From positions 1 to 28,642 of the IMG/VR virus record IMGVR_UViG_3300046751_000535: a stretch of 28,642 bases of DNA; one strand, given 5' to 3'. The notes beneath the pieces are model-generated. The model worked only from the letters and a program-made list of their open reading frames with translations, was not told the origin of the DNA and did not search any database. Origin of the DNA: a virus. The position numbers and the translations under genes were made by a program. This document shows positions 2,827 to 28,642 of this stretch, piece by piece (position 1 is the first letter of the stretch; each line of letters opens with the position of its first letter).

Positions 2827-5800
2827 TTACGGTCTTACTGACTCGAATCTCTTGTTGTATTCATCGTACAGGCGCTCCTCTTTCTCAGCGATTGCCTGTA
2901 GTCGCTTCCACCTAACCATCGAATCAATGACCTTGTCATCGTACAAAGCTTTCTTCTCCTTCCTAAGATCTCGAAGCTGCTTCTCGATTGCCTTATGTGT
3001 CACCTCAAACTGATACAGCCGTGGACCAAACCGTTGCTGCAGGTTTCTACGGTCAGTTGGTGTCGATTCTTTGTACTCTTTTCTGTACTGCTGATAGTCG
3101 CCACGATTACTGTAGAAGGTGACTCGGTCTGAGTACTCACTAGCCATAGGCATGAACGTACGAAGGATCGGCACATCCTTCGGCAGGAGATCAGGTTCCT
3201 CTGAGGCCATCTTCATCACAGTATCTGAAGAGTCATCCAAGAACCGGCCAACACCGCCCATAAGGAACTCATAGAAGTGCATGATTCGCTCAGGGTTTAG
3301 GTCAATTGCTCCGCTGCGATACTCACTACCGCCCGATATGTCATTTAGGAACTCAGTAACCGCTGTCACACCCTCGTTTGTGCCACGCTTAGACGCATAC
3401 GCTGCAGGCCTCTCTACCATTAGAGGGTTCTGTGGGATCGTCACGTTCGAGCCAAAGAAGTTGATGTTGGCAATCTGCTCGATAGCCATGTCTCCAATAT
3501 CTGGACTAAGGAAGAACATGCCTTTTAGGATTGCGCTTTCGATCAGGTCTCTATCGTCTCCTGTGGCGTGCAAGCTCATAGGATTGAAGTGATGATCGAT
3601 CGATGTAGCGAGGTCAACGGATACCTGTTCTGGTGTCTTGATACCCATCACCATCTCAGCGCCAAAACGACCAATGTTATCTAGCAAGCCATAACCATAC
3701 GGCATCGGCATCGCGTAACCTTGACGGCCATCAGTAAAGACCATAGCGGTCTTCATCACGTACTCGTTGTAATCAACGTAGTTTGACTCGCCGTCATCGT
3801 CTTCACCCGCAAACGAGATGTTTGCCAGCGTTCTCGCAAACCCAAACATCACCATGCTTGCTGCAAGTGTTTGAGCTTTACTGACGCCTCCGTCTTTCTT
3901 GCCCCGGGTAAGCGCCTTAATGATGTTGACGTTACCCTGAACAGCGGCATTGAAGAATAAGTACAAGCTATCAATGGCGGAGCTGTATTCACCCTTTCGG
4001 TTGAAGTTAACTGTCAGATCTTTAGCAAGAGTTGCTGCGTCTGCACGCTCAACGCCGGCCTTTCTGGCCTCAATGTATGTCGCTAATCGGGCTGCGTTCT
4101 CTGTCGTTTGGTTAGCATCCTCAACCCAATCAAACATAGGCCGTAACTTATTGATGCCCTTAGCCTTCATGGTTTGCCCCATGATGGTCTCGAACCTAGC
4201 TTGCTGCTCTTCCAAGGACTTGGCTACGGAGAGACCGGTAGGTGCTCCGTCCTCGATGTACTCCTTGGCGTACTGATCGTACTCTCGAGCTTCATCCGTC
4301 TTGCCTTCAGCACCACGTCTGGCTCTGTAGAACGCCTTGAGAGAGGGCATGTATGACTTGCTTACCTTGCCTACAAGGTCAGTAGCACCCTCAAACTTGC
4401 CTTCAAGCCGGCCACCTTTTGCGTCAAGCTCTGAAATAGCAAAGGCTAAGCCAGTCTGAATATCCCGTAACGGGTTAACAAGTCCCCACGATGGGTTGTA
4501 GTTGATCAGCATATTGCGGCGGAAGTTTTGAAACCTCTGCATGGTGGTCAGAGCCTTGTTCATGAAGTCAACTTGGTTGTTGAACATGCCTACGCCGCCA
4601 CTTTGTAGCTGCCGGTTTAGCTCTTGATCTCTAACCTCAATGAAGAACGACTTGCCTCTACGCTTCACCTCTATGTACCGGGGTAGCCCATCGTCAGCAC
4701 GACGCTCTGAACGCAGCTCTTGATTGCTTTTCATTTCAGAAGGGTTGTTGTCGCGTGGTGGTCGCACCTTCTGGTTATACACTCTCCAGTTATCAGGAGA
4801 CTGGAACTTCTCAAACATCTTGAGTAGTTTTTGGGCGGTTCTATTTTTTTCCCCGCGCACAATTTTTTCTTCGGCATCCTTCATCGATACCGTTAGCGGG
4901 TTGACGGGTAGGGTTATCCGGCCTCTGGCCTTAAAGCTTTCAGAACCTTTAATGCTGAAGCCCTGTGTGCCGTTACCACCCTTCATCTCAAGACCTTCAG
5001 GGAATGCGGCAAATCCTTTTAGAGGAACATAGAATTGATAAGTGTCTTGCCAGTCCTCTCTGGTCCTGTTATCCAGCAAGCCCTGCTCAACCATGTTTTC
5101 TCGCATTTGTGTGAGCATTTGGTAGACGCGGTCTGCAATCCCTTCAAGAGAACTGGCCTTACCTTCTGACTCAGCAAGCTCAATGATTGCCTCTGCTTCT
5201 GTATCAGTAAGTCCTGACCCTTTTTCTTGATACTTGAATGGTGCAGTTTTGAGGACATCAAGTTTTTTCTTGATGAGGTTTAAATCGCTCTCGTCCTCGA
5301 CGGTATCCATCTGCTCTTCAAGAGCTTGGATCTGCTGTTCACGCAGATCGCGCTCTTGCTGTGCAATCTTGGCGTTACGCTCTGGGGCGTGCTTGGCTAA
5401 CAGATACAAACCAACCTGTTCTAAATCTACGTCAGCATCGGCAATCAAGTCTGCAATTGGCTTGACGTGCTCTTTCTCAAAATCATCTAGCTGCTTTTGA
5501 GCCTTGGAGTGCATGAGATTTTCATTGTCGTAAGCAGAAAAAGCAGAAGGCAATCGATCAAGCCCAAGGACTTGAGCAAATCTATTCTCAAGATCCTTTA
5601 ATCTTTCAAGGCGATCGCTAAGCTTACGAGTAAGTCCTTTCGGCATTACCCTTTTAAGACGACTATCAACACTCTTATCTACAGTGTGATCGTCGTTAAG
5701 ATTAAAGCTGACGTCTTGCTGGAACGGCTCATCTACCCGGATGTACTGAACGTCCTCGGCCGTGAATCCGTTAACATCATTCAGGTATCTACCGAATGCT

Positions 5801-8800
5801 GACTTAAGGCCGGGTGATGCGTCGAAGTTGGTGAGGCCATCCTCATCCTCAAACAACTGAATCATTAGGTCATCGATACGATCGAAGCCGAGATAGTCAT
5901 CACGCTCTAGGGCTCTGAGTAGGCGCTTAAACTCCGGGCTGACAGTGAGGTCATCGATGTCAAAGTCACCGATCAGGTCTTCGTAACCAATGCCTGAATT
6001 CTCTAGGTCTTTGACCGCTTGATTGCGAGCTACGTCTCGTGCAAGGCCGCTCTTGTAAGAGGGGACACGCATAGGCAGCGGCGATTCTTCCTGCTGGCTA
6101 GCAGGACCAGCTTCGCTCCATGTCCAGTCAGGCATGAGTCCAGCTTTCTGCTCAGCAAACACCGTGTCTAACACGGATGCGGTTTGGTTTGTCTCGCCGA
6201 AGGGCCCGTAGTTTAGCCAGCTGTTTTGACCGCGGGTCTCCGAGGTTAAAGCTGCTAGACCGGGGCCGGTAAACAAGCGAGCATGCGCCTGCCATGCATT
6301 CTCCTCGCCACGAGCCCGGAAGCCCGCACCTTCAATGCCATGGCCGAATGCATCATGTACTGCCCGGAACAAGTCATTACCCGTAACAACTTGATCGACA
6401 CCGTTCTGGTCTTTCCAGCGCAGCCCGGTATCAACTAGAAGCGGGTTGTCATCAACGTCGCCATCAGTGATGCCTTCGGTGCCGTACCCATCGTACGTGC
6501 CATAGACAGCCATGCGCTGATTGTTGCGGAGATCCCGAATGGCATTCCATGGGTTTCCGTCGTAAGGATCGGTCTCACTATCAAAGAACGTGAACTCGTA
6601 ACCAGCATCGACTAGGACGTCGTACTGAGCACGGGTCTGTCTGATCAGATCGTCGTATGCTTCTTTGACCGCGGGGTCTTGTGGGTTGTGCTCCATCTCG
6701 TCATACGCTTGCGCGATACGAGCGGCACGCTCAGGACTTACTTCGACGTAGGTTTCTTGTCGAGAGTATGAGATTCCATTTTGCTCAGCATATTCTTCTG
6801 CTGCTGCGACAACTCTGGGGTCTGGGCCCGTCGCGTTCTCGATGACCGGAGCACCATCAAGCGTCGTAATGCCTCCGCTTTGTAGCCGCTCTGCTCTGTC
6901 TCTAATTCGTTGTTGTCTTTCATTTGCAACTTCTCCAGTGATTGGCTGCTGCGGCTGACGCATTGCATCAACCTGCTGATCTTGAGGCACTGTATAAGTT
7001 GGAACGCCATCCGTACCGATAGCTTCTTCAAGCAATCCGTCCGCCAGCATCTCATCAATCAGCTCGACAGTAGGATTATACCCCTGACGAAGCTCTAGCT
7101 GAATAGGTGATTTTCCCTGAACCTCACCCTGTGAGGCTACAAAGTCTATTACCTGTTGCCGTAAAAGTCGTCCAGCAGCGTCCCCGTCGTCAGGTTCGGC
7201 CTGTTCTCCCAGCTCCTGATCGGCTTGCCCCGTGTCAAGGCCATCTCCGCCAACTCGTTCAGTTCCTCCATCGACTTGAACTTCTGGGCTTCCCGAGATG
7301 GGAGGTGCCCGAACTTGTCCCGGTACTGCTGTAGCATCGGTGGAAGGGTTGTCTGTTTGATCTTGCGTCTGTTCACTAGTGATATCCTCCGCTGTAAGTG
7401 TTGGATTATCTCGCAGCGATTTGATCAGATTGTACGCCTTTGGCGCCTTTTGTTTAAGAAGCTTTGGGTTTGCTGTGAGCATGGCGCCCAGCTGAGCAAA
7501 CACTTCTCGCTGAGTTGCCCTCAGTATTGCCGGTCTGTCCTCGGGCGCAGCGTCATTCAGCATAGCTTCAAGGTAGTTGAAGGGGTAACCGAAACGCTTG
7601 CCAAGATCTGTGCCATTCTCCCAGTTGCCGTATAACTCATCGACCACATCGCCAAGCAGCATGTCTGGCAAACCGTCACCATCAACGTCAGCAAACTCCA
7701 TAGCGAAATCGGGGAGGGTGTCAGAGTAGCTTTGCTCACTGTCAGCTGAGTGCCATACCTCGTGCGCCATGGCGAATCGATTGACTCGAGCCGCTTGATC
7801 ACTCGACAGACCTTCGGTGAGCTGCTCAGTGTTTATTCCTACCGCACCCGACTGAGGGAAGTAGGCAGCCACAGCATCGTCAGGAAGGTCTACATTACCT
7901 TCGATAGCATAGGTTCCGGTCACTGACTCAATGTGCTGCCGGGGTACACCTCGATCAACTAGGTCTAAGTAAATCGACATAGTCTCTTCGAGCTCTGGTA
8001 CATCAAGCGGATTACGAGGGTTGTCGTAGTGATCAACCAAAGACTGCAGGGTTACTGGATCCTCTGCCTCATCTCTGTTGTTAACAAGAGGATCACCACC
8101 ACGAGCCGGTGTAATAGTCTTAAGCAGGCTTGAGAATGAAATGGACTCTGGAACAAAGGTGTCGTCACCATTTACTTGTATCTTCTCCGAGCCCTCCTTT
8201 GCTTGCTGCTCAAGCTCGGTCTGCTTTTCTTTTAGAGACTGAGGTGTAGATACAGTAAATATAGGACCCTCAAATTCGACAGCACCGGGCTCCTTTTCAG
8301 GCTGAACTTTTCTGCGCCGGCGGCTAGCAATGCCTTGCTTTTCTAGCGATGACTTTGCTCTCTGCTGCTCTATACCATCTAGCTTTTCGATAGATGCCTG
8401 AACAGTTTCAATCGGTGCTATGTCATCCTGTACACCGTCAGCTATTAACTGCTTTTGCAGAGGGCCGGGGAGGCTACCTAGATAGATAGTGTTCTCTTCT
8501 GGCTCTAGGGGCATCTCTCCTAGTTCAACAGTTTTCTCTTGCTGAATATCAGAAATGATTTCTATCTTGGGGTTTAAAACGTTTTCCCCGTCAATCTCAA
8601 TGTAATCTCTTTTACCGCGATCATTCTGACCCTGATACTCAAGGTATACCCCTCTTTTACCTGTTCTTTTAGATACTTCCTCTCTAATAATTGCGGGTTC
8701 TTCGCTTACGGTTTCGCGAGTCACTCCATCAATTGTTTCTTTATTGGTTACTTTGACTGTTACCTGCTGACCAGCAGCAAAAGAACCTGTGTTTTCTTGG

Positions 8801-9978
8801 GGGGTGTTATCTGTTTCCGCGGCCGCTTTTTTTGCCGCACGCTTGGCCTCAACCATCTTGCCAAGACGGTCATCGTAGTCAGCCGGGTCAAACTTGGGGC
8901 GAATACCTTCAACGGTTCCACCGATTACACCACCGCCGATAAAGCCTGCAGCCAGTGAGTTTATGTACAGCGACTGAGCATTCTCGCCAGCCATGATCTC
9001 AAAAAACTCTTGCTGCTCTGACTCAGGTAGGCTCTCGTTTGCCCACGCTACTGCAGCACGACCCATAACTTCCTGAAGCGCTTCGATACCACCCTCGGCG
9101 CCGGCAGTCTTCGCTGACTCAGTAATGATTCGACGCACTACGCCACGATTGTCACTGAGCTGCTCTGCGATTGCCGTTCGCAACCCCTCAGGAGAGCGGT
9201 CCGGGAACAACTTTTTAAAGGCTCGCATGGGCACGCCTACAGAATCTAGAGCGCCTTGGGCTACACCAACAGTCAGTGCCGCAACAGGATCTAACTTGCC
9301 TGTTTCGGCCTCAATCTCTGTGAAGTTTTCGCCAGCATTCATGCCGATGCTGTACAGGGCAGAGCCACCGATTGCAGCCCGTTGAGGTATCTTGCCTAAC
9401 GCCTCTTGCTCGTAATCTTTGCGAAGCTTTTTCAGGGCGATCTTGTTACCCGCGTCTGCCGCCCCATCTGTTACTGCTTGCTGAACCCGTGCGTCGATCG
9501 ATTCCTTAAGAACGTTCTTAGCGGCACCTTTGACAGCAGCCTTTGTTGCAATTCCAGCCAGACCCCCACCAAGAAGGTCAGGCACAAGAGTGCCAAGAGT
9601 GTACTGCATGTAATCGAGACTATCGCCAAAGCTTTCAATGTCCTCCACACGAGTAACATTGCCGCCAAGAGCGTCTGCTTCAGACATCTTTTGATTGTAG
9701 TAATCCAAGCCATCGCGAACCCAGTCCTCATTGCCTAACACGGACCCTGCAAGTGCCTTAACGCCACCACCTAATCCTTGTGTCTGCGTAAACCCGGCTT
9801 TTACACCAGTGACAAAGTCGCCCGACTCGCTCTCACTTTCTTCGAGGTCTGTTACTTCCTGCTGTACGGAAGCGCGTTCTTCAGCTTTTTGCTGGCGCTG
9901 TAATGCACGATCAGATCGTTCTTGCTGACGAAGAAATAAGTCGATCGAATCATCGTCTTCATAGGATACTAATGGCAT
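2827..9978 (-). CDS. Giant polyvalent virion/ejection protein with zincin and LPD38-like domains
   Basis: A 2383-residue protein, last in the late operon; ATG with AGGAG about 7 nt upstream. Visible parts: an acidic N-terminus (1-55); Gly/Ala-rich, membrane-active-looking helices (about 125-155 and 340-355) and a helix-rich core with TAGAEGGIEALQEVMGRAA (291-309), as in phage internal virion proteins; a metallopeptidase-like segment with HEVWH (739-743), a candidate third ligand Glu825 in QREVFAQLGAML, and a DVDGDGLPD loop (764-772) between them; an acidic linker (about 890-985); a conserved domain with LFRAVHDAFGHGIEGAGFRA (around 1208) and RGQNSWLNYG; coiled coils (about 1490-1640); and an LPD38-like end with FNRKGEYSSAIDSLYLFF (from 1992). 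Large proteins of this kind are thought to be packed in the head and ejected into the host. No lytic transglycosylase motif was found, so the zincin part may act in cell-wall or protein cleavage. Domain names are by eye. Confidence 0.8.
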   Translation of the reverse strand: MPLVSYEDDDSIDLFLRQQERSDRALQRQQKAEERASVQQEVTDLEESESESGDFVTGVKAGFTQTQGLGGGVKALAGSVLGNEDWVRDGLDYYNQKMSEADALGGNVTRVEDIESFGDSLDYMQYTLGTLVPDLLGGGLAGIATKAAVKGAAKNVLKESIDARVQQAVTDGAADAGNKIALKKLRKDYEQEALGKIPQRAAIGGSALYSIGMNAGENFTEIEAETGKLDPVAALTVGVAQGALDSVGVPMRAFKKLFPDRSPEGLRTAIAEQLSDNRGVVRRIITESAKTAGAEGGIEALQEVMGRAAVAWANESLPESEQQEFFEIMAGENAQSLYINSLAAGFIGGGVIGGTVEGIRPKFDPADYDDRLGKMVEAKRAAKKAAAETDNTPQENTGSFAAGQQVTVKVTNKETIDGVTRETVSEEPAIIREEVSKRTGKRGVYLEYQGQNDRGKRDYIEIDGENVLNPKIEIISDIQQEKTVELGEMPLEPEENTIYLGSLPGPLQKQLIADGVQDDIAPIETVQASIEKLDGIEQQRAKSSLEKQGIASRRRRKVQPEKEPGAVEFEGPIFTVSTPQSLKEKQTELEQQAKEGSEKIQVNGDDTFVPESISFSSLLKTITPARGGDPLVNNRDEAEDPVTLQSLVDHYDNPRNPLDVPELEETMSIYLDLVDRGVPRQHIESVTGTYAIEGNVDLPDDAVAAYFPQSGAVGINTEQLTEGLSSDQAARVNRFAMAHEVWHSADSEQSYSDTLPDFAMEFADVDGDGLPDMLLGDVVDELYGNWENGTDLGKRFGYPFNYLEAMLNDAAPEDRPAILRATQREVFAQLGAMLTANPKLLKQKAPKAYNLIKSLRDNPTLTAEDITSEQTQDQTDNPSTDATAVPGQVRAPPISGSPEVQVDGGTERVGGDGLDTGQADQELGEQAEPDDGDAAGRLLRQQVIDFVASQGEVQGKSPIQLELRQGYNPTVELIDEMLADGLLEEAIGTDGVPTYTVPQDQQVDAMRQPQQPITGEVANERQQRIRDRAERLQSGGITTLDGAPVIENATGPDPRVVAAAEEYAEQNGISYSRQETYVEVSPERAARIAQAYDEMEHNPQDPAVKEAYDDLIRQTRAQYDVLVDAGYEFTFFDSETDPYDGNPWNAIRDLRNNQRMAVYGTYDGYGTEGITDGDVDDNPLLVDTGLRWKDQNGVDQVVTGNDLFRAVHDAFGHGIEGAGFRARGEENAWQAHARLFTGPGLAALTSETRGQNSWLNYGPFGETNQTASVLDTVFAEQKAGLMPDWTWSEAGPASQQEESPLPMRVPSYKSGLARDVARNQAVKDLENSGIGYEDLIGDFDIDDLTVSPEFKRLLRALERDDYLGFDRIDDLMIQLFEDEDGLTNFDASPGLKSAFGRYLNDVNGFTAEDVQYIRVDEPFQQDVSFNLNDDHTVDKSVDSRLKRVMPKGLTRKLSDRLERLKDLENRFAQVLGLDRLPSAFSAYDNENLMHSKAQKQLDDFEKEHVKPIADLIADADVDLEQVGLYLLAKHAPERNAKIAQQERDLREQQIQALEEQMDTVEDESDLNLIKKKLDVLKTAPFKYQEKGSGLTDTEAEAIIELAESEGKASSLEGIADRVYQMLTQMRENMVEQGLLDNRTREDWQDTYQFYVPLKGFAAFPEGLEMKGGNGTQGFSIKGSESFKARGRITLPVNPLTVSMKDAEEKIVRGEKNRTAQKLLKMFEKFQSPDNWRVYNQKVRPPRDNNPSEMKSNQELRSERRADDGLPRYIEVKRRGKSFFIEVRDQELNRQLQSGGVGMFNNQVDFMNKALTTMQRFQNFRRNMLINYNPSWGLVNPLRDIQTGLAFAISELDAKGGRLEGKFEGATDLVGKVSKSYMPSLKAFYRARRGAEGKTDEAREYDQYAKEYIEDGAPTGLSVAKSLEEQQARFETIMGQTMKAKGINKLRPMFDWVEDANQTTENAARLATYIEARKAGVERADAATLAKDLTVNFNRKGEYSSAIDSLYLFFNAAVQGNVNIIKALTRGKKDGGVSKAQTLAASMVMFGFARTLANISFAGEDDDGESNYVDYNEYVMKTAMVFTDGRQGYAMPMPYGYGLLDNIGRFGAEMVMGIKTPEQVSVDLATSIDHHFNPMSLHATGDDRDLIESAILKGMFFLSPDIGDMAIEQIANINFFGSNVTIPQNPLMVERPAAYASKRGTNEGVTAVTEFLNDISGGSEYRSGAIDLNPERIMHFYEFLMGGVGRFLDDSSDTVMKMASEEPDLLPKDVPILRTFMPMASEYSDRVTFYSNRGDYQQYRKEYKESTPTDRRNLQQRFGPRLYQFEVTHKAIEKQLRDLRKEKKALYDDKVIDSMVRWKRLQAIAEKEERLYDEYNKRFESVRP

Positions 9979-14232: not shown

Positions 14233-17200
14233 TTAACGAGCCCCCATCATAAAACCGGAGATCTCGTACAAATAATCAGCAGTGGTGCTGCTGTCGTTGT
14301 CATTAATTCCAGAAGAGCCGGTTCGAGTCACTTCTACCTTCATATCTACCGTCCCCGTGGTCTTGTTTGACAGAGATCCGCTAACGGCAAACTGAGCATA
14401 AAGGCTCGTATTCGCCTTAAATCGGGTTTCTCCAACAAGCTGCCAGCTACCACCGCTACCGACTGATATCGTGTCGCTTGTTGAAAACGTGCTCCCAGAT
14501 GAAAGGGTGTACACAATAGAAGTGGTATTAGAGCTGGAGTAATAGTTCACAGAAGTAGCAGTGTGCTGTTTGCCAGTCGCAAAAAGAGAGTTTCCGACAG
14601 ACACAGATCCGGTAATGTTTCCCGAAAAATTAATGATGTGCGTACCGTAGTATGACGACGAAGCTGTCGGGGTACCTATAGAGCTTGCACCGCCTGCGTT
14701 GTCCTTCATGTACATTCTGAAGCGATACGTTTTACTGTTTGTGGAGTCGTACCAGCCAGTGACGGTAGCAAACGGCTTATGGCCATTTGTCGAGTGAGTT
14801 GTAGCTGGTAGCTGTTGAGATGTTACCTGTACAGTGCCTCCGCCAGAGGCCGTATTTCCCCTAATAACCACGGTAGAAGTAGATCTAAAAGGAGAAAGAA
14901 CAGCAACATCACCTACAAGGTTATCTGCGTATACAGACGTACCAGACATTACGGTGGCACTAATATTGCCGGCAGTAATTAGATTAGCGTTAAGAGCGTT
15001 TACCCTTAGTGCGCCGGTTATAGGATCTGCCGTTAGCGTTGCTCCATCGATATCAAGGAGGGAGGTGCTTATTGTTCCCGCGGTAATTTTATCTGCAGTA
15101 AGGCTGGAGATCTTCGCGCTGTCAATGGCAGCATCACCAATGAAAGCGTTCGTGATAGAACCACTTCTGATGAATGCCGTGTCCATGTAAACACCGGCAG
15201 GAACCGACTCTCCATTAATTGTTGTCGCGTTCGCCTGAACGGTAAACGGAACAATGAGGTTTGAGCTGTTACTCGGGCTGTTGGTTTGCTCATCCGTAGC
15301 ACTGGGGTTCACCATTGCAAACTTGTCTGCGCGGATGATAAATGCAGATGTTGGGGTGCCGTCGTTGTCTGTATTAGATAAGCCAAATCCGGCGATGTGA
15401 CCGTTGTTATCTAGCTTGACCGAGTACTGACTGGACAGCCCTCCGTCCTCATCACCAACAACTTCCTGCAACGTCTGAATCGAACTTGTTTGTCCTGAAA
15501 CTGTGGCAGTAACTGTGTCAATCGCCGATGCATTAGCTGACCCGTTAGGAAACACCTCGGTATTCAGGTCGCTGACCACTTGCGCTGACGCAAGCTGTAC
15601 ATTTCCAGAGCTGTCAAAAACTGCGGTGGCTAAATTGTCAATTCTGCTGGCGTTAGCTGTACCGTCTGGGAAAACCTCTGTTGTCAGAGTGTTCAGATTT
15701 GCTGCAGTCGCAAGTCTACCGCTGCCATCTGAGTTGAATACCTCAGAAAACAGCCCATCTATTCGGCTTGCTGATGTTGAACCATCGCCATAGACCTCTG
15801 TCTCTAGGTCAGAAACCGCTGTAGAACTGGCAAGCTTAACTAAACCATTTTCATCAAAAACTGTTGCATCTAAAGTATCTAATCGGCTGGCACTGGTTGT
15901 CCCGTCCGGGAACACCTCGGAGGTTAAGGTGTTGACCGCCGATGCTGTAGCTAAATTCAGAGTGCCCTCAGTGTTACCCGAAACAAACATGGCTGCTGCA
16001 ATGTTATCGACCTTGTCACTGATAGCGCCGTCGCCATTAACTGACGTATTAAGGTTTGTTAGCGCAGAAGCTGTCGCTAATCTCGCCGTGCCGTCCTCGT
16101 TAAATACTTCCGTAACGAGACCATCGATGCGACTGGCAGAAGCCCCGCTAGTACCATAGACCTCAGTTTCTATATTGTTTAGAGCGGTAGCACTCGCTAA
16201 CTTAACTTCACCGCTGCTATCAAATACAGCGCTTTGCAGTGTGTTGATTGCGCTTGTAGAGCTTGTCCCATCAGGGAACACTTCGGCAGTAACTGTATTC
16301 AGCGCTGATGCTGTAGCTAGCTGTAAAGTGCCGGTAGTGTCAGAGCCCACAAACATTTGAGCGGCAATGTTATCTACTTTGTCAGACAGAGCTCCCGACC
16401 CATTAACTTCAGTGTTAAGGACTGTCAGTGCTGCGGCAGTAGCAAGCTCAAGGTTTCCGTCATCGTCAAAGATGGTGGTATAGATCCCGTCGATTCGACT
16501 CGCAGAAGCACCAGAAGGGCCATAAACCTCCGTCTCAAGTGCGCTCACAGCCTGTGCAGTTGCAAGCTTAATCGTTCCGTTTGCATCAAAGACCGCATTT
16601 TCGAGCGTGAAAATGGCGCTGTTAGAACCCGTGCCATTGGGGAAAACCTCGCTCTTTACTGTATCGACAACGTCTGCAACCGCCGTCAATCCTGTGCTGG
16701 GGTCGGTGAGTGTTGCGTTAAGCGTGTCTATCCGAGACGTTGTGGAGCTGGTTGGAGTCACTCCGTCGCCGTAAACCTCGGTGTTAAGCAGAGATACAGC
16801 GCTTGCTGAGGCTAAAACGGTGTTGCCATTTGCATCAAATACCGCGCCTTCCAAAGAGGTTATATCGCCCTGTATAGAGCCGACGATAGTCGAATTGCTG
16901 TCTGGGTCGTAAATCGACGAGACAGTGTTCGTCAAATTAGTAAGAGCCTGACCGGTTGCTAACCGACCGTTTCCATCAGAGTCGAATACCTCTCCCTCGA
17001 GGCTAGTAATGTCGCCCTGTATAACTGAAATCTGCGTCGTTGCGTTGGGGTCGTCGGGGTCATATATAGCTTCTATGTCTGAAGTAAGACCGCTCAAAGC
17101 CACCGTCGTTGCCAGCTTGACGTTACCGTTAGCATCAAAAACAGCGCCCTCTAAATCGGTGACGTCCGACTGAAGTACACGTACTAGGCTAGTATTGTCA

Positions 17201-19770
17201 TTTGGGTCGTAGATCGACTCAACGTCATTCCTAAGTCCGCCCAAAGCAGTCGCAGTAGCAAGACGACCGTCTCCATCATCATCGAATACCTCCGCTTCTA
17301 GGGATGTCACGTCACTTTGCAAGACCCTTACGATGCTCGTGCTGTCATCCGCGTCGTAGATAGCCTCAACGTCGTTTACCAGTCCCCCTAGTGCAGTAGT
17401 TGTTGCCAGCTTGACGTTGCCCTGAGCGTCGAATACAGCCCCCTCGAGAGACGTCACATCGCTCTGCAAAACGCGGACGATACTGGTGTTGTCGTTGGCA
17501 TCATAGATAGCTTCAACGTCGTTCTGTAACCCACCTACTGACGATGTAGTGGCAAGTCGAGCCGTGCCATCTGTATTGAAGACTTGGCTTTCGAGTGACG
17601 TAACATCGGACTGCAATACCCGAACCAAACTGCTTGCGTCGTTAGCGTTATAGACAGCCTGAAGGTCTGACACGACGCCAGATAGTGCAGTTGTTGTTGC
17701 TAAACGAGCCGATCCGTCCGTGTTGAATACTTGTCCTTCGAGACTTGTAACATCTGACTGCAATACTCTAACGAGACTGTTGGCATTATCAGCGTCATAT
17801 ATCGCCTCTACCTCATTACGCAAGCCGCTTAGCGCTGTTGTGGTTGCAAGCTTTACACCGCCATTTGCGTCATATATATCAGCCTCTAAATCGGTAATAT
17901 CCGACTGAATTACTCGGACAAGCGATGTGTCATCGTCTGCGTCATAGATCGCATCTACGTCATTTCGCAGACCACCTGTTACTGAGGTGCTCGCAAGCTT
18001 GACGTTGCCATTAGAGTCATAAACATCTGCCTCAAGATCGGTGATATCTGATTGAATGACTCTTACTAAGCTTGTGTTGTCATTAGGATCATAGATAGCT
18101 GCAACGTCATTGGTTAAGTCAGACACAGCCGAAGCCGTAGCTAGACGCGCATTGCCGTTGGGCAGAAAAACCTGACCCTCAAGGCTCGTTATATCTGACT
18201 GAATGCTCGAAACGATTGTAGTTGCAGTGGCATCGTCAGGGTCATAGATAGCCGTAACGTCGTTTTGCAGCTCACTAAAAGCAGAACCAGAAGCGAGCTT
18301 TACTGAGCCGTCTTCGTTAAATACAGCACCCTCAAGGTCCGTTATGTCGCTCTGGATGGAGGTAATAGTTCCGCCCTGCGTGGTGACAGTCGTATCTAGC
18401 GCACTAAGAGCGGTACCTGTCGCTAGGCGCAATGAACCATCAGCGTTAAAAACCTCTGCGTTTAGATCGCTAATCTCACTTTGGTTATCTGCAACTCGCG
18501 AGTCGGCAATGCTCACCCATGACTTAGTTCCATCACCATTGTCGTCCATCCATACATAAGCTTTGTTGTTGTCATCGCTGTCGTACCAGCGTGAAAAAGC
18601 AGGAATAGGGTCCGACGTAGAATCGGTAGGAGCAGATGCCTGAACATAAACGCTAGATGTACCAGCAGTCACGTCGGCAAGGGCTTCATCCAGATTCTCC
18701 AGCGATGTATTGATCGAGGTGATCGAACTGTTAATAGTCGTAATTGAGCTGTTAATGCTGCTCAGGCTGGTGGTGTGATTACCTACCGTGCCTTCAGCGG
18801 AGCCGATTCTGCTTACTAGCGAATTGCCGCTGTAGCCAGAGGTGTAGCCAACAAACGTTTCTAAGTTACCTGCTAGCTGATTAGCCGAAGTGGCTACTGA
18901 GCTAGCTGAGGATGCTGTCGATGACGCGGCATTGGCCACTGATTCAGTATCACTGAGGCGAGACACCAGACTACTGCCTGAGTAGCTGTTTATGTAGCCG
19001 GTAAATGTCTCTAGATTTGTGGCTAAAGAACTGGCAATTGATGCCGTCGACTCTGTAGTCGAAATTCTAGAAAGTAAGTTGAGTCCGCTATAGTTATCTG
19101 TGTAGCCGGTGTAAGTCTCAATCGACGTCAACAATGAATCGATTGTCGGGATCTGCGCGATCGGAGACGCTAGTGATTGTGCCAGCTCGCTTGATGTAAT
19201 CTCGCCCTCCAGCAAATCCAGTAGGATGGCTACATCTTGCTGAGTCGTACCGTTAACACCTATGGAGCTATTAAAGGGGCCTATGTCATCGAGAACATTT
19301 ACCGCTCGCACCCAATAGTAAAAGCTTGCACCCGGACCGGTAGGATCAGAAAACACCCCAGTAAAACCAGAAACCCGGGCAAGTAGTGTTGCATCAGCAA
19401 TGCTGTCGCTGGTGTGACGAAACACCTCTACAAAGGCATGGCCAACGTAATTCTTCAGATCCCATGTGAGGATGATGTTTTGAAATGCACCAGAGGCGGT
19501 CAGGCTTGTAGGCGCTGGAGGCGCCTGAATCCCACCCGTCTCTGTGACAGGGACAAATCCACTGCTAGTGCCAAGCAAACTCTGGCTGGCATTTGACTTA
19601 ATACGAACAAGATTGGTGTCAACTAAGTCCTTAAACGTTACGGCACGGTCTAAAGGACTGCCCCGGTGACCCATCAGGACATCTAGACCTTCCTTTACAG
19701 TCTCTCCAAAGCGCTTGTCGTGAGCATTCCAAGTCGGAGGTACAGCCATTACGGCCTTTTTCTTAGCCAT
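14233..19770 (-). CDS. Repeat-rich tail tip/fibre protein with FN3 and DUF1983-like domains
   Basis: A 1845-residue protein. The start at 19770 is chosen because GGAG lies 6 nt upstream and the ATG overlaps the preceding stop by 8 nt; an ATG at 19806 lacks a site. Parts in order: leader with PPTWNAHDKRFGETVKEGL; a fibronectin type III-like domain (about 82-173); a Ser/Thr-rich region with SGY-SLVSR repeats; about 21 copies of a (D/N)-x-(D/N)-G-x-x-x-L-A-(T/S) motif (about 430-1427), the first dozen in units of about 49 residues; a DUF1983-like segment (NNGHIAGFGLSN, IIRADKFAMVNP; about 1448-1490) as at the end of lambda gpJ-type host-specificity proteins; a helical ALRVNALNANLITAGNISA part; and a Ser/Thr-rich C-terminal domain that may bind the receptor. 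Its equivalent in T7 phages is not obvious. Confidence 0.85.
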   Translation of the reverse strand: MAKKKAVMAVPPTWNAHDKRFGETVKEGLDVLMGHRGSPLDRAVTFKDLVDTNLVRIKSNASQSLLGTSSGFVPVTETGGIQAPPAPTSLTASGAFQNIILTWDLKNYVGHAFVEVFRHTSDSIADATLLARVSGFTGVFSDPTGPGASFYYWVRAVNVLDDIGPFNSSIGVNGTTQQDVAILLDLLEGEITSSELAQSLASPIAQIPTIDSLLTSIETYTGYTDNYSGLNLLSRISTTESTASIASSLATNLETFTGYINSYSGSSLVSRLSDTESVANAASSTASSASSVATSANQLAGNLETFVGYTSGYSGNSLVSRIGSAEGTVGNHTTSLSSINSSITTINSSITSINTSLENLDEALADVTAGTSSVYVQASAPTDSTSDPIPAFSRWYDSDDNNKAYVWMDDNGDGTKSWVSIADSRVADNQSEISDLNAEVFNADGSLRLATGTALSALDTTVTTQGGTITSIQSDITDLEGAVFNEDGSVKLASGSAFSELQNDVTAIYDPDDATATTIVSSIQSDITSLEGQVFLPNGNARLATASAVSDLTNDVAAIYDPNDNTSLVRVIQSDITDLEADVYDSNGNVKLASTSVTGGLRNDVDAIYDADDDTSLVRVIQSDITDLEADIYDANGGVKLATTTALSGLRNEVEAIYDADNANSLVRVLQSDVTSLEGQVFNTDGSARLATTTALSGVVSDLQAVYNANDASSLVRVLQSDVTSLESQVFNTDGTARLATTSSVGGLQNDVEAIYDANDNTSIVRVLQSDVTSLEGAVFDAQGNVKLATTTALGGLVNDVEAIYDADDSTSIVRVLQSDVTSLEAEVFDDDGDGRLATATALGGLRNDVESIYDPNDNTSLVRVLQSDVTDLEGAVFDANGNVKLATTVALSGLTSDIEAIYDPDDPNATTQISVIQGDITSLEGEVFDSDGNGRLATGQALTNLTNTVSSIYDPDSNSTIVGSIQGDITSLEGAVFDANGNTVLASASAVSLLNTEVYGDGVTPTSSTTSRIDTLNATLTDPSTGLTAVADVVDTVKSEVFPNGTGSNSAIFTLENAVFDANGTIKLATAQAVSALETEVYGPSGASASRIDGIYTTIFDDDGNLELATAAALTVLNTEVNGSGALSDKVDNIAAQMFVGSDTTGTLQLATASALNTVTAEVFPDGTSSTSAINTLQSAVFDSSGEVKLASATALNNIETEVYGTSGASASRIDGLVTEVFNEDGTARLATASALTNLNTSVNGDGAISDKVDNIAAAMFVSGNTEGTLNLATASAVNTLTSEVFPDGTTSASRLDTLDATVFDENGLVKLASSTAVSDLETEVYGDGSTSASRIDGLFSEVFNSDGSGRLATAANLNTLTTEVFPDGTANASRIDNLATAVFDSSGNVQLASAQVVSDLNTEVFPNGSANASAIDTVTATVSGQTSSIQTLQEVVGDEDGGLSSQYSVKLDNNGHIAGFGLSNTDNDGTPTSAFIIRADKFAMVNPSATDEQTNSPSNSSNLIVPFTVQANATTINGESVPAGVYMDTAFIRSGSITNAFIGDAAIDSAKISSLTADKITAGTISTSLLDIDGATLTADPITGALRVNALNANLITAGNISATVMSGTSVYADNLVGDVAVLSPFRSTSTVVIRGNTASGGGTVQVTSQQLPATTHSTNGHKPFATVTGWYDSTNSKTYRFRMYMKDNAGGASSIGTPTASSSYYGTHIINFSGNITGSVSVGNSLFATGKQHTATSVNYYSSSNTTSIVYTLSSGSTFSTSDTISVGSGGSWQLVGETRFKANTSLYAQFAVSGSLSNKTTGTVDMKVEVTRTGSSGINDNDSSTTADYLYEISGFMMGAR
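15480..18490. repeat. Imperfect tandem repeat array within the tail-tip gene
   Basis: About 21 diverged repeats sharing the encoded motif (V/I)-(F/Y)-x-x-(D/N)-G-x-x-x-L-A-(T/S). From 16740 to 18490 the period is about 147 bp (49 residues, with LQSDVTSLE and AIYDxxDNTSLVRV linkers); from 15480 to 16740 shorter linkers alternate (EVYGxxGASASRIDG, NGxGAISDKVDNIA, EVFPDGTSSxSA). It shows diverged internal duplication, not a CRISPR array. Confidence 0.9.
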
Positions 19771-21409
19771 TGATTTCTCCAGCGGACTCGTACACACACA
19801 CCTCATTGATCGGATCGGAGCCGCTTAGCTCGACTTCAAATTCTTTGGCCTTGTATCCCGAAGGTAGCCTAAACAATGCTTCGCTGGTTACTGTCTCTGT
19901 GTGCTTCAATGCGCCGTCTGCATATAGCTTGAAGGTGATTCCTGAGCCGTAGCTATCAGCTTCAACCTTCGCCACGCCGAGGTTGATGGGCCTGCTGTTA
20001 TAGAACTTTCTAGACTTCCACGTATATGAGAGGTTAGTGCCGGCAGCAAACTTCTTAACACTGCCATTAACAACGATGTATAACTCATCTTCTTCTAGGT
20101 CGTTGAAGCCGGCGGTAGCATAGAAATCAAGGTCGGTGAGGGAGTTTTTTCCTCCCCGCGGATCAAAAATAAATCCTTTCTCAGTAGCCCCGTCCTTGTA
20201 GAAGCCGATGTAGTGACCCTCCCACATGAAGGCAATGATCGAAGAGGGCGCTAGTTCCTGCCACTGATCTCGAGTCAAGATGTCCTCAGTTACCAGTTTG
20301 AGCCCGTTGTCTGTAGCCATTACCAATCCATCTGGGCTGGCGTACATAACGGATGAACCCATATCGACCACAGATCGGCTAGATACGCACGACAAGGTGG
20401 AGTCTATTTCTGTAAGGGCCATAGTCGCCGGGTCTACGCCAGACGCTAAGAAAGGTTTTTCTTTAGTTAAGATAAGAAGGCCCATCTGAAGTGGTGCAAG
20501 AGCGACAATGTCCGACTTAACACCCAGCTTGTATTCATCAGGGAATGCGTGAGGCAAATACGCCTCGCTGAACGAAACCGTTCTTCCTGAGAATCCTGCA
20601 AACACTCCGTTAGGCAGCGCAGTCAAACCCAAGAGCGGACCGTCCGGATGATCTGCCGAAACATCATCTGGTGGAGCGTCGAAGTTAGCCGATGTGATTG
20701 CCTCTCCAAGCTGCTGCTCTGACAAAGAGTCTGTGTACGACGTTGTTGCAAAGGTCACGTCAGCTACGAACCGGAATGTACCAGTAGTGTCGGTGCGATA
20801 AATCCGCTTTTTGGTTAGGTTGTAGTTTCCGCTCACATTGGTTGGGAAGGTGAGCACCACATTTTGATCACTGTATACGTCTACAATTTGGTCAGATAGA
20901 GCGTCACATGGCTGGCCTTCTTCTCCGTAAGCTGTAACGTACGTGAAAACGTACGCCCGAGACTGAGGAATTTCTTCGTCCTGTTTTTCTGTAGTCGTGT
21001 CGGTTGCGACAGTAGATATGTCTGGCGGCTTTGGAACACCCAATCGATAGTAGGTGTTGTTGCCGACAATGGCGCTAGTGGTCATCCGGGGATAACCGGT
21101 TGATCCGCCTATCCCAGAAACGTAAATGCGCTCATGAGGATCTTCAGCGAGAGGGGAACGAACAATATCAAGAGCAGAGTTACTGCCAATCCATATGGAA
21201 GAATTGAATTTAAATAACGTCTTAGTTGAACCAGTAATAGCATAGGAACCAACAGGGGTGATCGTCGCAGTCGCATTGTCCTTCCAAGGCTCAAGCCTTC
21301 CTGAATCTAAACGTACGTTGGTTGCTGTTTGCGCCATATCTTCAGGCAGCAAACGAGCAAAGATCTTGGGCGCCTTACCGCCAAATGTTCTTAGTCTAAA
21401 TCCTGTCAC
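19763..21409 (-). CDS. Tail nozzle/hub-like beta-propeller protein (T7 gp12-like by role)
   Basis: A 548-residue protein. GTG at 21409 is preferred: it overlaps the holin stop as GTGA and has GGAGG 5 nt upstream, whereas the ATG at 21421 has no site. The N-terminus GFRLRTFGGKAPKIFARLLP then ATNVRLDSGRLEPW is typical of phage tail tube/nozzle proteins that open with 'GG...P...l.p..A....N...d.g.l'. The rest is beta-rich with repeated short blade-like segments (LLGLTALPNGVFAGFSG, LLILTKEKPFLASG, GHYIGFYKDG, YIVVNGSVKKF). It would form the end of the tail through which DNA leaves. Family by pattern, not by search. Confidence 0.55.
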   Translation of the reverse strand: MTGFRLRTFGGKAPKIFARLLPEDMAQTATNVRLDSGRLEPWKDNATATITPVGSYAITGSTKTLFKFNSSIWIGSNSALDIVRSPLAEDPHERIYVSGIGGSTGYPRMTTSAIVGNNTYYRLGVPKPPDISTVATDTTTEKQDEEIPQSRAYVFTYVTAYGEEGQPCDALSDQIVDVYSDQNVVLTFPTNVSGNYNLTKKRIYRTDTTGTFRFVADVTFATTSYTDSLSEQQLGEAITSANFDAPPDDVSADHPDGPLLGLTALPNGVFAGFSGRTVSFSEAYLPHAFPDEYKLGVKSDIVALAPLQMGLLILTKEKPFLASGVDPATMALTEIDSTLSCVSSRSVVDMGSSVMYASPDGLVMATDNGLKLVTEDILTRDQWQELAPSSIIAFMWEGHYIGFYKDGATEKGFIFDPRGGKNSLTDLDFYATAGFNDLEEDELYIVVNGSVKKFAAGTNLSYTWKSRKFYNSRPINLGVAKVEADSYGSGITFKLYADGALKHTETVTSEALFRLPSGYKAKEFEVELSGSDPINEVCVYESAGEING

Positions 21410-21789
21410 TTTCGCCTCCATACACGGATTCCATACACCGCACTAAACACAGCGAGGATGAGCCACTGATACCATTGAGGTGTGAGAGACAGAGCTTTAA
21501 ATCCATTCACAACATAAGGCTGCATCTGAGGGATGAAGCTCATAACAAGGGGGATGCTTAAAAGCAGAAGAATAAACTCGTCTTTCCAGCCCGAGTTTTT
21601 TATTTGCTCGAGCTCCCATGAGTTGTCAATTTCTTGACCCCTCTGCACCATTTCGATTCGGGTTTTATGCTTGAGTTCGTCTAGCTCAATCTTCTTGAGC
21701 TTCTCATCGTGCTTTCGCTGAGATCGGTTGTCGACCGCGTCAACAACTTTACCGCCAAGACTGCCAAGCAATGAGCTAACAAGGCTCAT
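21406..21789 (-). CDS. Holin (two-membrane-segment, GTA-holin-like)
   Basis: A 127-residue protein behind a strong GGAGGT site (4 nt before ATG). The N-terminal half is charged and helical (RKHDEKLKKIELDELKHKTR, then WELEQIKNSGWKDEF). Two hydrophobic segments follow: FILLLLSIPLVMSFI (about 78-92) and WYQWLILAVFSAVYGIRV (about 107-124), ending in a basic VWRRK. This layout, including the 'IKNSGWKDE-(hydrophobic)-P' passage and WYQ before the second segment, is typical of small holins of marine phages. It would make holes in the inner membrane at the end of infection. No endolysin gene was recognised beside it. Confidence 0.75.
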   Translation of the reverse strand: MSLVSSLLGSLGGKVVDAVDNRSQRKHDEKLKKIELDELKHKTRIEMVQRGQEIDNSWELEQIKNSGWKDEFILLLLSIPLVMSFIPQMQPYVVNGFKALSLTPQWYQWLILAVFSAVYGIRVWRRK

Positions 21790-25972: not shown

Positions 25973-28642
25973 TTAGTCCTCCGCGACTAAGCCGTTACTG
26001 GCGCTGATCGCCGCGCCTACAGCGTCTGTTGTGTTGTCGACTCTTCGGAGTCCTTGGAATACGCTACGTCCTGAGCTTGTACCCGCGTGGAGTAGTTCAG
26101 TATCGTCATCGTATGCGAGGGCTGTTACAGCGTCTGAGGTGCCGTATAGAGTAGCTTTGGCGTTCTCTTGGAAGAGACGCTTTTCATCGTTGTAGATTTT
26201 GGCAATTTGTTCGGCTGTTGGAGCTGTGGCGGAGATGCGCCAAAGGGCTAGGGAGCCGTCGGTGTTAGGTAAAGCAAAATCCTGCCCTATACCTAACATT
26301 ACAGTACCGCTTGTGTTATTTAAGTTTCTGTTGCTGGCTAATGAAGCAGAAAGACCGCCATTAACATACATATACACCACACCACTTTGCCTAACTAGGG
26401 TAGCGAAGCGCCATGTATTATCATCAACAGCGAAACCAGAGCTCATATGGTCAAATGCACTGTAGTTATTTGCTGATGACACAAAGTACAAGTTACTTGT
26501 ACCGGAGTCTATTCGTAACTGCCACTGCCCGTCACCTTGGAAGGTACCCCCAGAGGCGTCACCATATTGAATCAATCTTCGGTGCCCTGTAGTAGCGGGT
26601 GCTTTAAACCACCCCATCACACAGAAGTCACCAGTACCAAAGTCTAGGTCACTGTTATAAGGCTGTTGTAGATAGTTACTGCTAGAGAACCCACTATACG
26701 CCACAAGGTCAGCGCCCGTTGCTACAGCCGTCTTAGTGACTGTGCCGAATACTTGGAGACCGTTGCGATTAACACTGCGGTCTTCTTCTGCTAGGCGTAC
26801 TGAGATGTTGTCAAAAGTTGCAGTATTTCCAATTCCAGTTGTCGAAACTCCTAGCTGAATTGCTGTACTCGTATAACGGGCTTCAAACGTAAGGCTATGA
26901 ACCCCTGCTGTACCTAACCCAATGTTAAAATGGATATTATCAACGTGAGCAAAATTAGCACCAGAAACACCTTCATACGAAAAAACATATGTTTTACCGA
27001 CTTCAGTAGTCACTGTAGTGTCCAAACGAGTCCTATCCGCTACAGTATTTGTGAGAACAAGTTGACCGTTTGTTGAAGTCGCCGTGCCGTTAGAATTTAC
27101 TGTCCATCCGTTAACATTGCTATCAAACGTACCATTAGTAACCAACTCAGACCCAGTAACATTCGTAGTATCAGTATCCGAAAGGGTAGCTAACTTGATG
27201 TCGCCCGGCATCCAGCCTGTGGTGTAGTCTGTATCAATTTCACAGCCTAGCGTTGTTGTAATGCTGTCAAAAGAATCCCAACGACGAATACCTAGATGCT
27301 GGCCCGTATCATTTCTAATATAAGTGGCGATCGTATGGTCATCTATAATCGCTGCAGAGCCAGTGCCGTTGTTATAATAGTGAAGTACTGGCTTAACACT
27401 CGTACTGAATTTACCTTCCTCTGCAAGAAGATTAAAGGTGCCATTGCTATACTCCATCAGCGCATAACGATAGTTAGTGGTAGCACAGCTAAAGCGCAGG
27501 TGTTGGTGATCAAGCCATTTGATCTGTTTAATTTGGGTTCGCCCAGTGTAATTGTAGACGACACCGTTATTCTCAATGATGCTGATACCGCCATGAGTAG
27601 CAACCGCTATGGTTGGCACAGGTAGTCCAGTGTCAGCGTCTATAGGTGCGTTGGGGAGGACTGTCACTGCAAGATCATTTACAGCCAAATCACTGCTCGG
27701 CCCTGCGTACAGAGCAGTGGTTCTATCCCCTAGAGATGTGAAATTATTTGATGTTAATAGGCTGTCGTGTCTACCTTGTTTGTAACTTCCAAATACTCCA
27801 ACGATATTGCTGAAAAAGTAATCTGCCACAAAGTTTAGTTGGTACCAACCGTTGCCGCTGTAATTAAAGATAGAATCTCGTTGGGATCCGAAAATAGAAC
27901 CATCACGAGCGGTAACACTTGCGGCGTAACCGCTGTTATGGGTCAAATCAGCGTATTGCGCCCACAACGGCATGGCAGGATCGTCACCGTCATATATCCT
28001 TATTATGTTACCAGTGTGTACCAGCACAGCAACAGCAGGGAACTTCTTAGTTGCACCACGAGTGCTAGTGTTCAGCGTCTCGTTGTACCAGCTAGTGTTT
28101 TGTGTGCGGTGTCTCCATGCACCACCGTCAGAATCCTTGCTAGTGTCATAGACGAATATGTCTACGGCTGTGTCAGACTTAGACTCAGCGATAGCTTGGA
28201 GATCTAGGGTGTTGGTGCTAACTGACTCAGTGTTGACGGTGCCTGACAGGTAGAGGTCTTTGAAGCGATAAGAAGAAGTTCCCAAACTAACCGTGTTGTC
28301 TGCTCTTGTCGCATTTCTTAAAGGAACATGTGCAAAAGCATCAAAACTAATGCCTGAATGATTAGTTTCTCCGTTGACTTGAAAGCCATGAGATTGATAG
28401 GCAATACTACCGACTTCGGTGCCGTCTTTGCGGAAGCTTACAATGTCCCCATCGTTGCCTGTTCTATTTAAATAAGCGGCAACTGCACCGACGCTGTTTC
28501 TAATTTGCCCTGTCGGAGTAACGTACAAACCGTTTTCTGTAGAGCTTGTATAAAGGTTGGAGTCAGTGGTTCCAAGCATCCAGTTGCCAGAGCTATCTAT
28601 TCTTGCTGTTTCAGTGCTTCCGTTAGCAAATCTTACATAGCC
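25973..28642 (-). CDS. Large tail fibre with carbohydrate-binding-like and LamG-like modules (5' end outside window)
   Basis: The frame is open to the window edge; an ATG at 28579 is preceded by in-frame fibre sequence (RFANGSTETARIDSSGNW), so it is internal and the gene starts upstream. About 889 residues are visible. Parts in order (from 28579): fibre shaft-like motifs such as NTVSLGTSSYRFKDLYLSGTVN; a beta-propeller-like region (about 145-460) with NYSGNGWYQLN, TIAVATHGGISIIENNG; a CBM-like sandwich from TGSELVTNGTFDSNVNGWTV to TATFDNISVRL (about 478-600); a LamG/concanavalin-like domain (about 625-770) with DFGTGDFCVMGWFKAP and GSLALWRISA; and a short last segment (GTSDAVTALAYDDDTELLHA, EED end). 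It is the largest candidate for binding surface sugars. Confidence 0.7.
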   Translation of the reverse strand, partial: GYVRFANGSTETARIDSSGNWMLGTTDSNLYTSSTENGLYVTPTGQIRNSVGAVAAYLNRTGNDGDIVSFRKDGTEVGSIAYQSHGFQVNGETNHSGISFDAFAHVPLRNATRADNTVSLGTSSYRFKDLYLSGTVNTESVSTNTLDLQAIAESKSDTAVDIFVYDTSKDSDGGAWRHRTQNTSWYNETLNTSTRGATKKFPAVAVLVHTGNIIRIYDGDDPAMPLWAQYADLTHNSGYAASVTARDGSIFGSQRDSIFNYSGNGWYQLNFVADYFFSNIVGVFGSYKQGRHDSLLTSNNFTSLGDRTTALYAGPSSDLAVNDLAVTVLPNAPIDADTGLPVPTIAVATHGGISIIENNGVVYNYTGRTQIKQIKWLDHQHLRFSCATTNYRYALMEYSNGTFNLLAEEGKFSTSVKPVLHYYNNGTGSAAIIDDHTIATYIRNDTGQHLGIRRWDSFDSITTTLGCEIDTDYTTGWMPGDIKLATLSDTDTTNVTGSELVTNGTFDSNVNGWTVNSNGTATSTNGQLVLTNTVADRTRLDTTVTTEVGKTYVFSYEGVSGANFAHVDNIHFNIGLGTAGVHSLTFEARYTSTAIQLGVSTTGIGNTATFDNISVRLAEEDRSVNRNGLQVFGTVTKTAVATGADLVAYSGFSSSNYLQQPYNSDLDFGTGDFCVMGWFKAPATTGHRRLIQYGDASGGTFQGDGQWQLRIDSGTSNLYFVSSANNYSAFDHMSSGFAVDDNTWRFATLVRQSGVVYMYVNGGLSASLASNRNLNNTSGTVMLGIGQDFALPNTDGSLALWRISATAPTAEQIAKIYNDEKRLFQENAKATLYGTSDAVTALAYDDDTELLHAGTSSGRSVFQGLRRVDNTTDAVGAAISASNGLVAED

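Follow-up and report, generated by a model that had tools for sequence, protein, structure and literature searches.

The window, by which the whole analysed stretch of DNA is meant, comprises the 28,642 bases of one virus record. Its minus strand encodes a giant polyvalent protein, and inside the open reading frame (ORF) of this protein, where a predicted zincin-type peptidase fold ends, a second, short gene begins in the +1 frame. The peptidase had been pointed out by a first-pass annotation made from the sequence of the window; the nested gene was absent from it. The features concerned are the following, in window coordinates; the long ORF is called the host gene and its frame the host frame.

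2827..9978, minus strand: ORF of the polyvalent protein, host frame of the nested gene, 2383 amino acids (LPD38 E 4.3e-21)
8947..9846, minus strand: conserved N-terminal region, residues ~45-344, common to nearly all relatives by blastp
7357..8097, minus strand: predicted zincin domain, residues ~628-874 (AlphaFold pLDDT 85.9, pTM 0.83; 20 distinct homologues)
7750..7764, minus strand: HEVWH motif, residues 739-743, with H, E and H invariant in the 20 distinct domains
7741..7743, minus strand: Asp746, third residue after the motif, invariant in the same 20
7663..7689, minus strand: DVDGDGLPD, residues 764-772, not conserved across the aligned zincin homologues
7582..7593, minus strand: FGYP, residues 796-799, with F, Y and P invariant in the 20 domains
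7504..7506, minus strand: Glu825, putative third zinc ligand within ExFAQxG, likewise invariant in the 20
7386..7390, minus strand: GGAGG, Shine-Dalgarno-like site of the nested gene (from the Shine-Dalgarno count)
7149..7376, minus strand: nested gene, +1 frame of the host gene, GTG start, 75 amino acids, stop included (from conservation, Shine-Dalgarno and codon-position tests)
6109..6861, minus strand: exchangeable cargo module with VHDAFGHG, residues ~1040-1290, missing in the related loci L002 and L003, present in other phages
2845..5709, minus strand: LPD38-type C-terminal part, residues ~1424-2378, by similarity to relatives

Neighbours of the ORF include a tail fibre protein and an internal virion protein; the ORF matching the latter (19763-21421) overlaps the tail fibre ORF (14233-19806) by 44 bases (19763-19806). 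Another large ORF (25973-28642, minus strand), cut by the window end, has a Laminin_G_3 (concanavalin-like) domain and no PHROG match.

From IMG/VR 80 related loci were collected, using an alignment of the conserved C-terminal half as query. A significant LPD38 domain lies near the C-terminus of the 2383-residue ORF, and with the zincin and the exchangeable modules it makes up the combination by which polyvalent proteins are recognised, several unrelated domains plus an LPD in one large phage protein. The constant parts of the architecture are residues 45-344, the zincin and, for most relatives, the C-terminus of the LPD38 type; the modules between them are swapped. Some loci (L107, L112, L125 and L148) keep the N-terminal region and the zincin, but in their C-terminus no similarity to the LPD38 type was detected; an ART-PolyVal domain is among the swapped modules of L107. 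The VHDAFGHG module has relatives in mycobacteriophage, Nostoc phage and Planktothrix phage proteins, and an unrelated module takes its place in L002 and L003. Residues 941-988, just behind the nested gene, gave a weak sub-threshold match to FtsK_gamma (E 0.05) and possibly form a small winged-helix module. Between the window and L097, host codons 1698-1757 (~4708-4887, minus strand) are almost identical at synonymous and nonsynonymous positions, which looks like recent exchange or very strong constraint. Because of its polyvalent family, and for this reason only, we infer that the giant protein is probably injected into the host together with the DNA.

The first-pass annotation had read the segment as a gluzincin-type HExxH...E peptidase, and HEVWH (739-743), DVDGDGLPD (764-772) and Glu825 in REVFAQL (residues 824-830) were all recovered at the positions it claimed. 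The homologue comparison that it had proposed as a check bore the metal site out: although the 20 distinct domains fall to 27% identity to that of the window, HExxH and Glu825 are invariant in them, and the complete set of unchanged residues is H739, E740, H743, D746, F796, Y798, P799, E825, F827, A828, Q829 and G831. Since the putative metal-site residues are kept in all 20, the motif, of which 0.007 are expected per shuffled copy of the protein, is not a chance occurrence. It is present in every 5'-complete ORF of the clade, and the distance from its second His to the Glu is 78-102 residues across the zincin copies. The calcium loop, which the same annotation had placed between the motif and Glu825, did not survive: DxDGDG is found only in the closer homologues, and elsewhere unrelated sequence of variable length occupies this place. 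One related ORF (L034) carries two HExxHxxD motifs, at residues 927 and 1872; HEAWHVID belongs to the present zincin, and HEWWHALD is of a kind seen in a distant clade and was not matched by the zincin profile.

The structure prediction that the annotation had also proposed yielded a zincin-type fold, with HExxH and Glu825 in two long helices of the alignment-based AlphaFold model. When Foldseek candidates were ranked by VIA-align, Certhrax, lethal factor and the PPEP endopeptidases, Zn-peptidases of the M34 group, came out on top (Z 8-11); sequence identity in the structural alignments was 13-17%, and Foldseek's own scores against the PDB were weak (best E 0.05). Among the sequence families, Pfam Peptidase_M90 (PF06167) matches seven homologues (best E 8.8e-5) and ATLF (PF07737) likewise seven (best 3.7e-4). 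Against a curated ATLF cut-off of 27.4 bits, the window's domain scores 12.1, L107 19.1 and L112 21.8, all below it, the weak matches in L107 and L112 spanning both the motif and the Glu helix; for Peptidase_M90, no match of the window's own domain was reported at E up to 1. Filing the domain under ATLF or M90 was therefore rejected, and we describe it as a predicted gluzincin that works like the lethal-factor/PPEP group and is not counted as a member of either family. Residue invariance, predicted fold and the weak homologue matches to these two families together support the gluzincin assignment. That His739, His743 and Glu825 lie close together in space is predicted from the fold match only. 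The modelled zincin fold with an intact metal site is very probably correct, and the domain is predicted, with somewhat less confidence, to be catalytically active.

About 110 bases downstream of the zincin features flagged earlier, a stretch of low synonymous divergence was recognised. It belongs to the linker behind the zincin (host codons 868-943), for which disorder is predicted (pLDDT <50 from domain residue 254 onwards) and which is nevertheless unexpectedly conserved, and it overlaps the +1-frame gene. This frame is open in all 20 copies and codes for a conserved protein of ~75 amino acids, ~8 to 9 kDa and mostly basic, with no cysteine in the copies checked and with invariant Tyr, His, Glu, Ala, Trp, Arg and Asp positions. 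The protein had no convincing match, and weak scattered ones only, in PHROGs, Pfam, NCBIfam or the PDB sequences, and we found no description of the gene in the open-access literature. Neither the zincin nor the nested protein has cultured-phage relatives in INPHARED or, with single-protein queries, any in bacterial genomes.

The evidence for coding comes from several properties of the overlap. Between the window and L002, pS is 0.04 in the linker; the zincin has 0.66 and the region upstream 0.61. In six of eight pairs, synonymous divergence along the whole host gene reaches its minimum at the nested-gene codons or right beside them; in the other two these codons are among the lowest, beside stretches that are near-identical in protein as well. 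With only the small protein as query, 53 loci were obtained. In each of them the small gene sits inside a long ORF, always in the same relative frame, and has its start codon 16-18 codons ahead of a Y...FGH motif. A Shine-Dalgarno core is found upstream of the start codon in 39 of 43 distinct copies, as against 9.4% of control start codons in the same frame. Within the overlap, it is the third (wobble) position of the small frame that differs most often, and the value for the host third position, 0.54 in the zincin flank, drops to 0.19. Among codon differences of a single base, 1396 are synonymous and 975 nonsynonymous when read in the small frame, as compared with 368 and 1753 when read in the host frame. 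This codon-position pattern indicates that the constrained product is the small protein and not the host spacer. When the host protein was held fixed and its synonymous codons were redrawn (500 draws per pair, nine pairs), the +1 frame remained open in 20% of the draws made for each sequence, and in every one of the nine pairs, distant ones included, the real identity of the +1 protein was above that in all 500 draws. As the sequences in these tests are related to one another, the counts do not represent independent events. What distinguishes an overlapping gene, its own start with a ribosome binding site and protein-level selection in the second frame, is found here, and the nested gene is very probably real and translated. 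An autoprocessing site as the cause of the linker conservation was considered and rejected, as the constraint is carried by the +1 frame; the low synonymous divergence of the spacer consequently no longer argues for such a site there.

The zincin and the nested gene are strictly paired. Of 45 loci found with the zincin, one (L178) ends before the nested-gene position, and the gene is present in the 44 testable ones, down to 27% identity; in the most distant of them (L194) the nested-protein match is weaker but significant (E 2e-6), and the nested gene there has a GGAGG and an ATG of its own. Each of ten long contigs contains the zincin once and the nested gene once, and no match to the nested gene was obtained in Stx-type and other distant LPD38 phages, which are without the present zincin. 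Such pairing with a single peptidase makes a partner role of the small protein the leading interpretation.

The explanation that we favour, though we would put its chance at a little under one half, is that one stretch of DNA yields two proteins: a gluzincin which processes the giant protein and a small protein which works with it. In this mechanism zinc would be bound by His739, His743 and Glu825, Glu740 would act as the general base, and Asp746 and Tyr798 would support the site. The zincin would process the giant protein by proteolysis, either during packaging or once it has been ejected, rather than being aimed at a single host target; the domain is a fixed core while the cargo behind it is swapped, hence it most likely serves a function that all these phages share. 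Whether such processing is the main role of the zincin we regard as an even question. Where the zincin fold ends, ribosomes would restart in the +1 frame, using the internal Shine-Dalgarno site, and produce a distinct protein of ~75 amino acids, the host frame there presumably coding only for a tolerant, disordered spacer. The small protein would most likely work with the zincin as an inhibitor, a chaperone or a packaging partner. A direct action on the zincin is suggested tentatively, and with the same reserve the two may be seen as an obligate peptidase-regulator pair, encoded out of frame so that neither moves alone.

Against a partnership it has to be considered that physical linkage alone could account for the pairing in the absence of a joint function. 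The small protein might be a virion protein or an early host-takeover protein in its own right, which is overprinted in the tolerant spacer and has only its time of expression in common with the zincin. This is a serious possibility, and an unrelated overprinted gene is nearly as likely as the partner role: a second frame can evolve freely in a stretch predicted to be disordered, the two genes adjoin in the DNA and would move together anyway, and no similarity to known peptidase inhibitors was found. It accounts less readily for the fact that the small protein never occurs apart from the present zincin in 53 loci nor in a second copy in the ten long contigs, even though a stop introduced in the +1 frame without effect on the host protein would easily remove it. 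Far less probable, indeed scarcely credible, is that there is no second gene and that a signal in the DNA or RNA, or recent exchange of the stretch between phages, accounts for the low synonymous divergence. In its favour, some other stretches of the host genes are also near-identical between pairs; those stretches, however, lack nonsynonymous differences too, while the host-frame changes in the overlap are mostly nonsynonymous and fall on the +1 wobble position. Moreover the start codon, Shine-Dalgarno site and stop are kept, and even in distant pairs the identity of the +1 protein is above every redraw.

Other roles for the zincin itself were also weighed. It might be an effector that cleaves a host protein after ejection, the small protein shielding the zincin or the phage until then. 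Its nearest folds do include toxins that cleave host proteins and the PPEP endopeptidases, and such a role was proposed for polyvalent zincins (PMC5512222), but a core domain that stays fixed amid swapped cargo is better explained by a virion function that the phages share than by a target specific to one host, and we consider the effector role unlikely. The first-pass annotation had suggested that the zincin could replace the missing T7-type transglycosylase; that it does so and opens the cell wall appears very improbable. No SLT domain was detected in the ten long related contigs or in the window proteins scanned, which agrees with it; this is only an absence, from a search of the ten contigs for SLT, whereas the nearest folds cleave proteins and the zincin is the fixed core whatever cargo follows.

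The peptidase is real but of a kind already known, since polyvalent-protein zincins were described in 2017 (PMC5512222). These zincins are mostly a prediction, and the nested gene provides a candidate partner which can be expressed, removed and tested. If the obligate pair is true, the virion peptidase would be produced along with a small control protein of its own. The nested gene also shows how a gene family, though strictly conserved, can escape listing when it lies wholly inside another gene; more of them may well come to light if giant phage genes are scanned for synonymous divergence.

According to Iyer et al. 2017 (PMC5512222), zincin-like peptidases are the commonest domain of polyvalent proteins, and autoprocessing or host cleavage was proposed for them. 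Like the MPTases described there, the present domain belongs to a giant multi-domain phage protein and has HExxH followed, in a later helix, by a Glu; it shares with one widespread phage MPTase clade the Asp three residues after the motif, invariant here as D746. The conserved His which that clade is described to have at the end of strand 2 has no counterpart, as the invariant or nearly invariant columns outside the motif contain no His in the 20 distinct domains. A nested gene behind the domain, as found here, is not mentioned in the passages of that paper considered here. The lethal-factor/PPEP group (peptidase family M34; Pfam ATLF) provides the best structural matches, with ATLF scores below the Pfam cut-off, and Peptidase_M90 (the MtfA family) matches the seven homologues but not the window's own domain. 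The C1 domain of the N4 virion RNA polymerase is another case of HExxH in a giant ejected phage protein (PMC12633501); its motif, HELVH, is without the Asp of the present zincin, and the polymerase was matched by neither the zincin profile nor the nested-protein profile. With the overprinted genes of viruses (reviewed in PMC8227390) the nested gene has in common that a second frame lies inside an older gene; unlike them, it represents a family absent from the libraries searched, fixed in widely diverged phages and furnished with its own Shine-Dalgarno site, start and stop.
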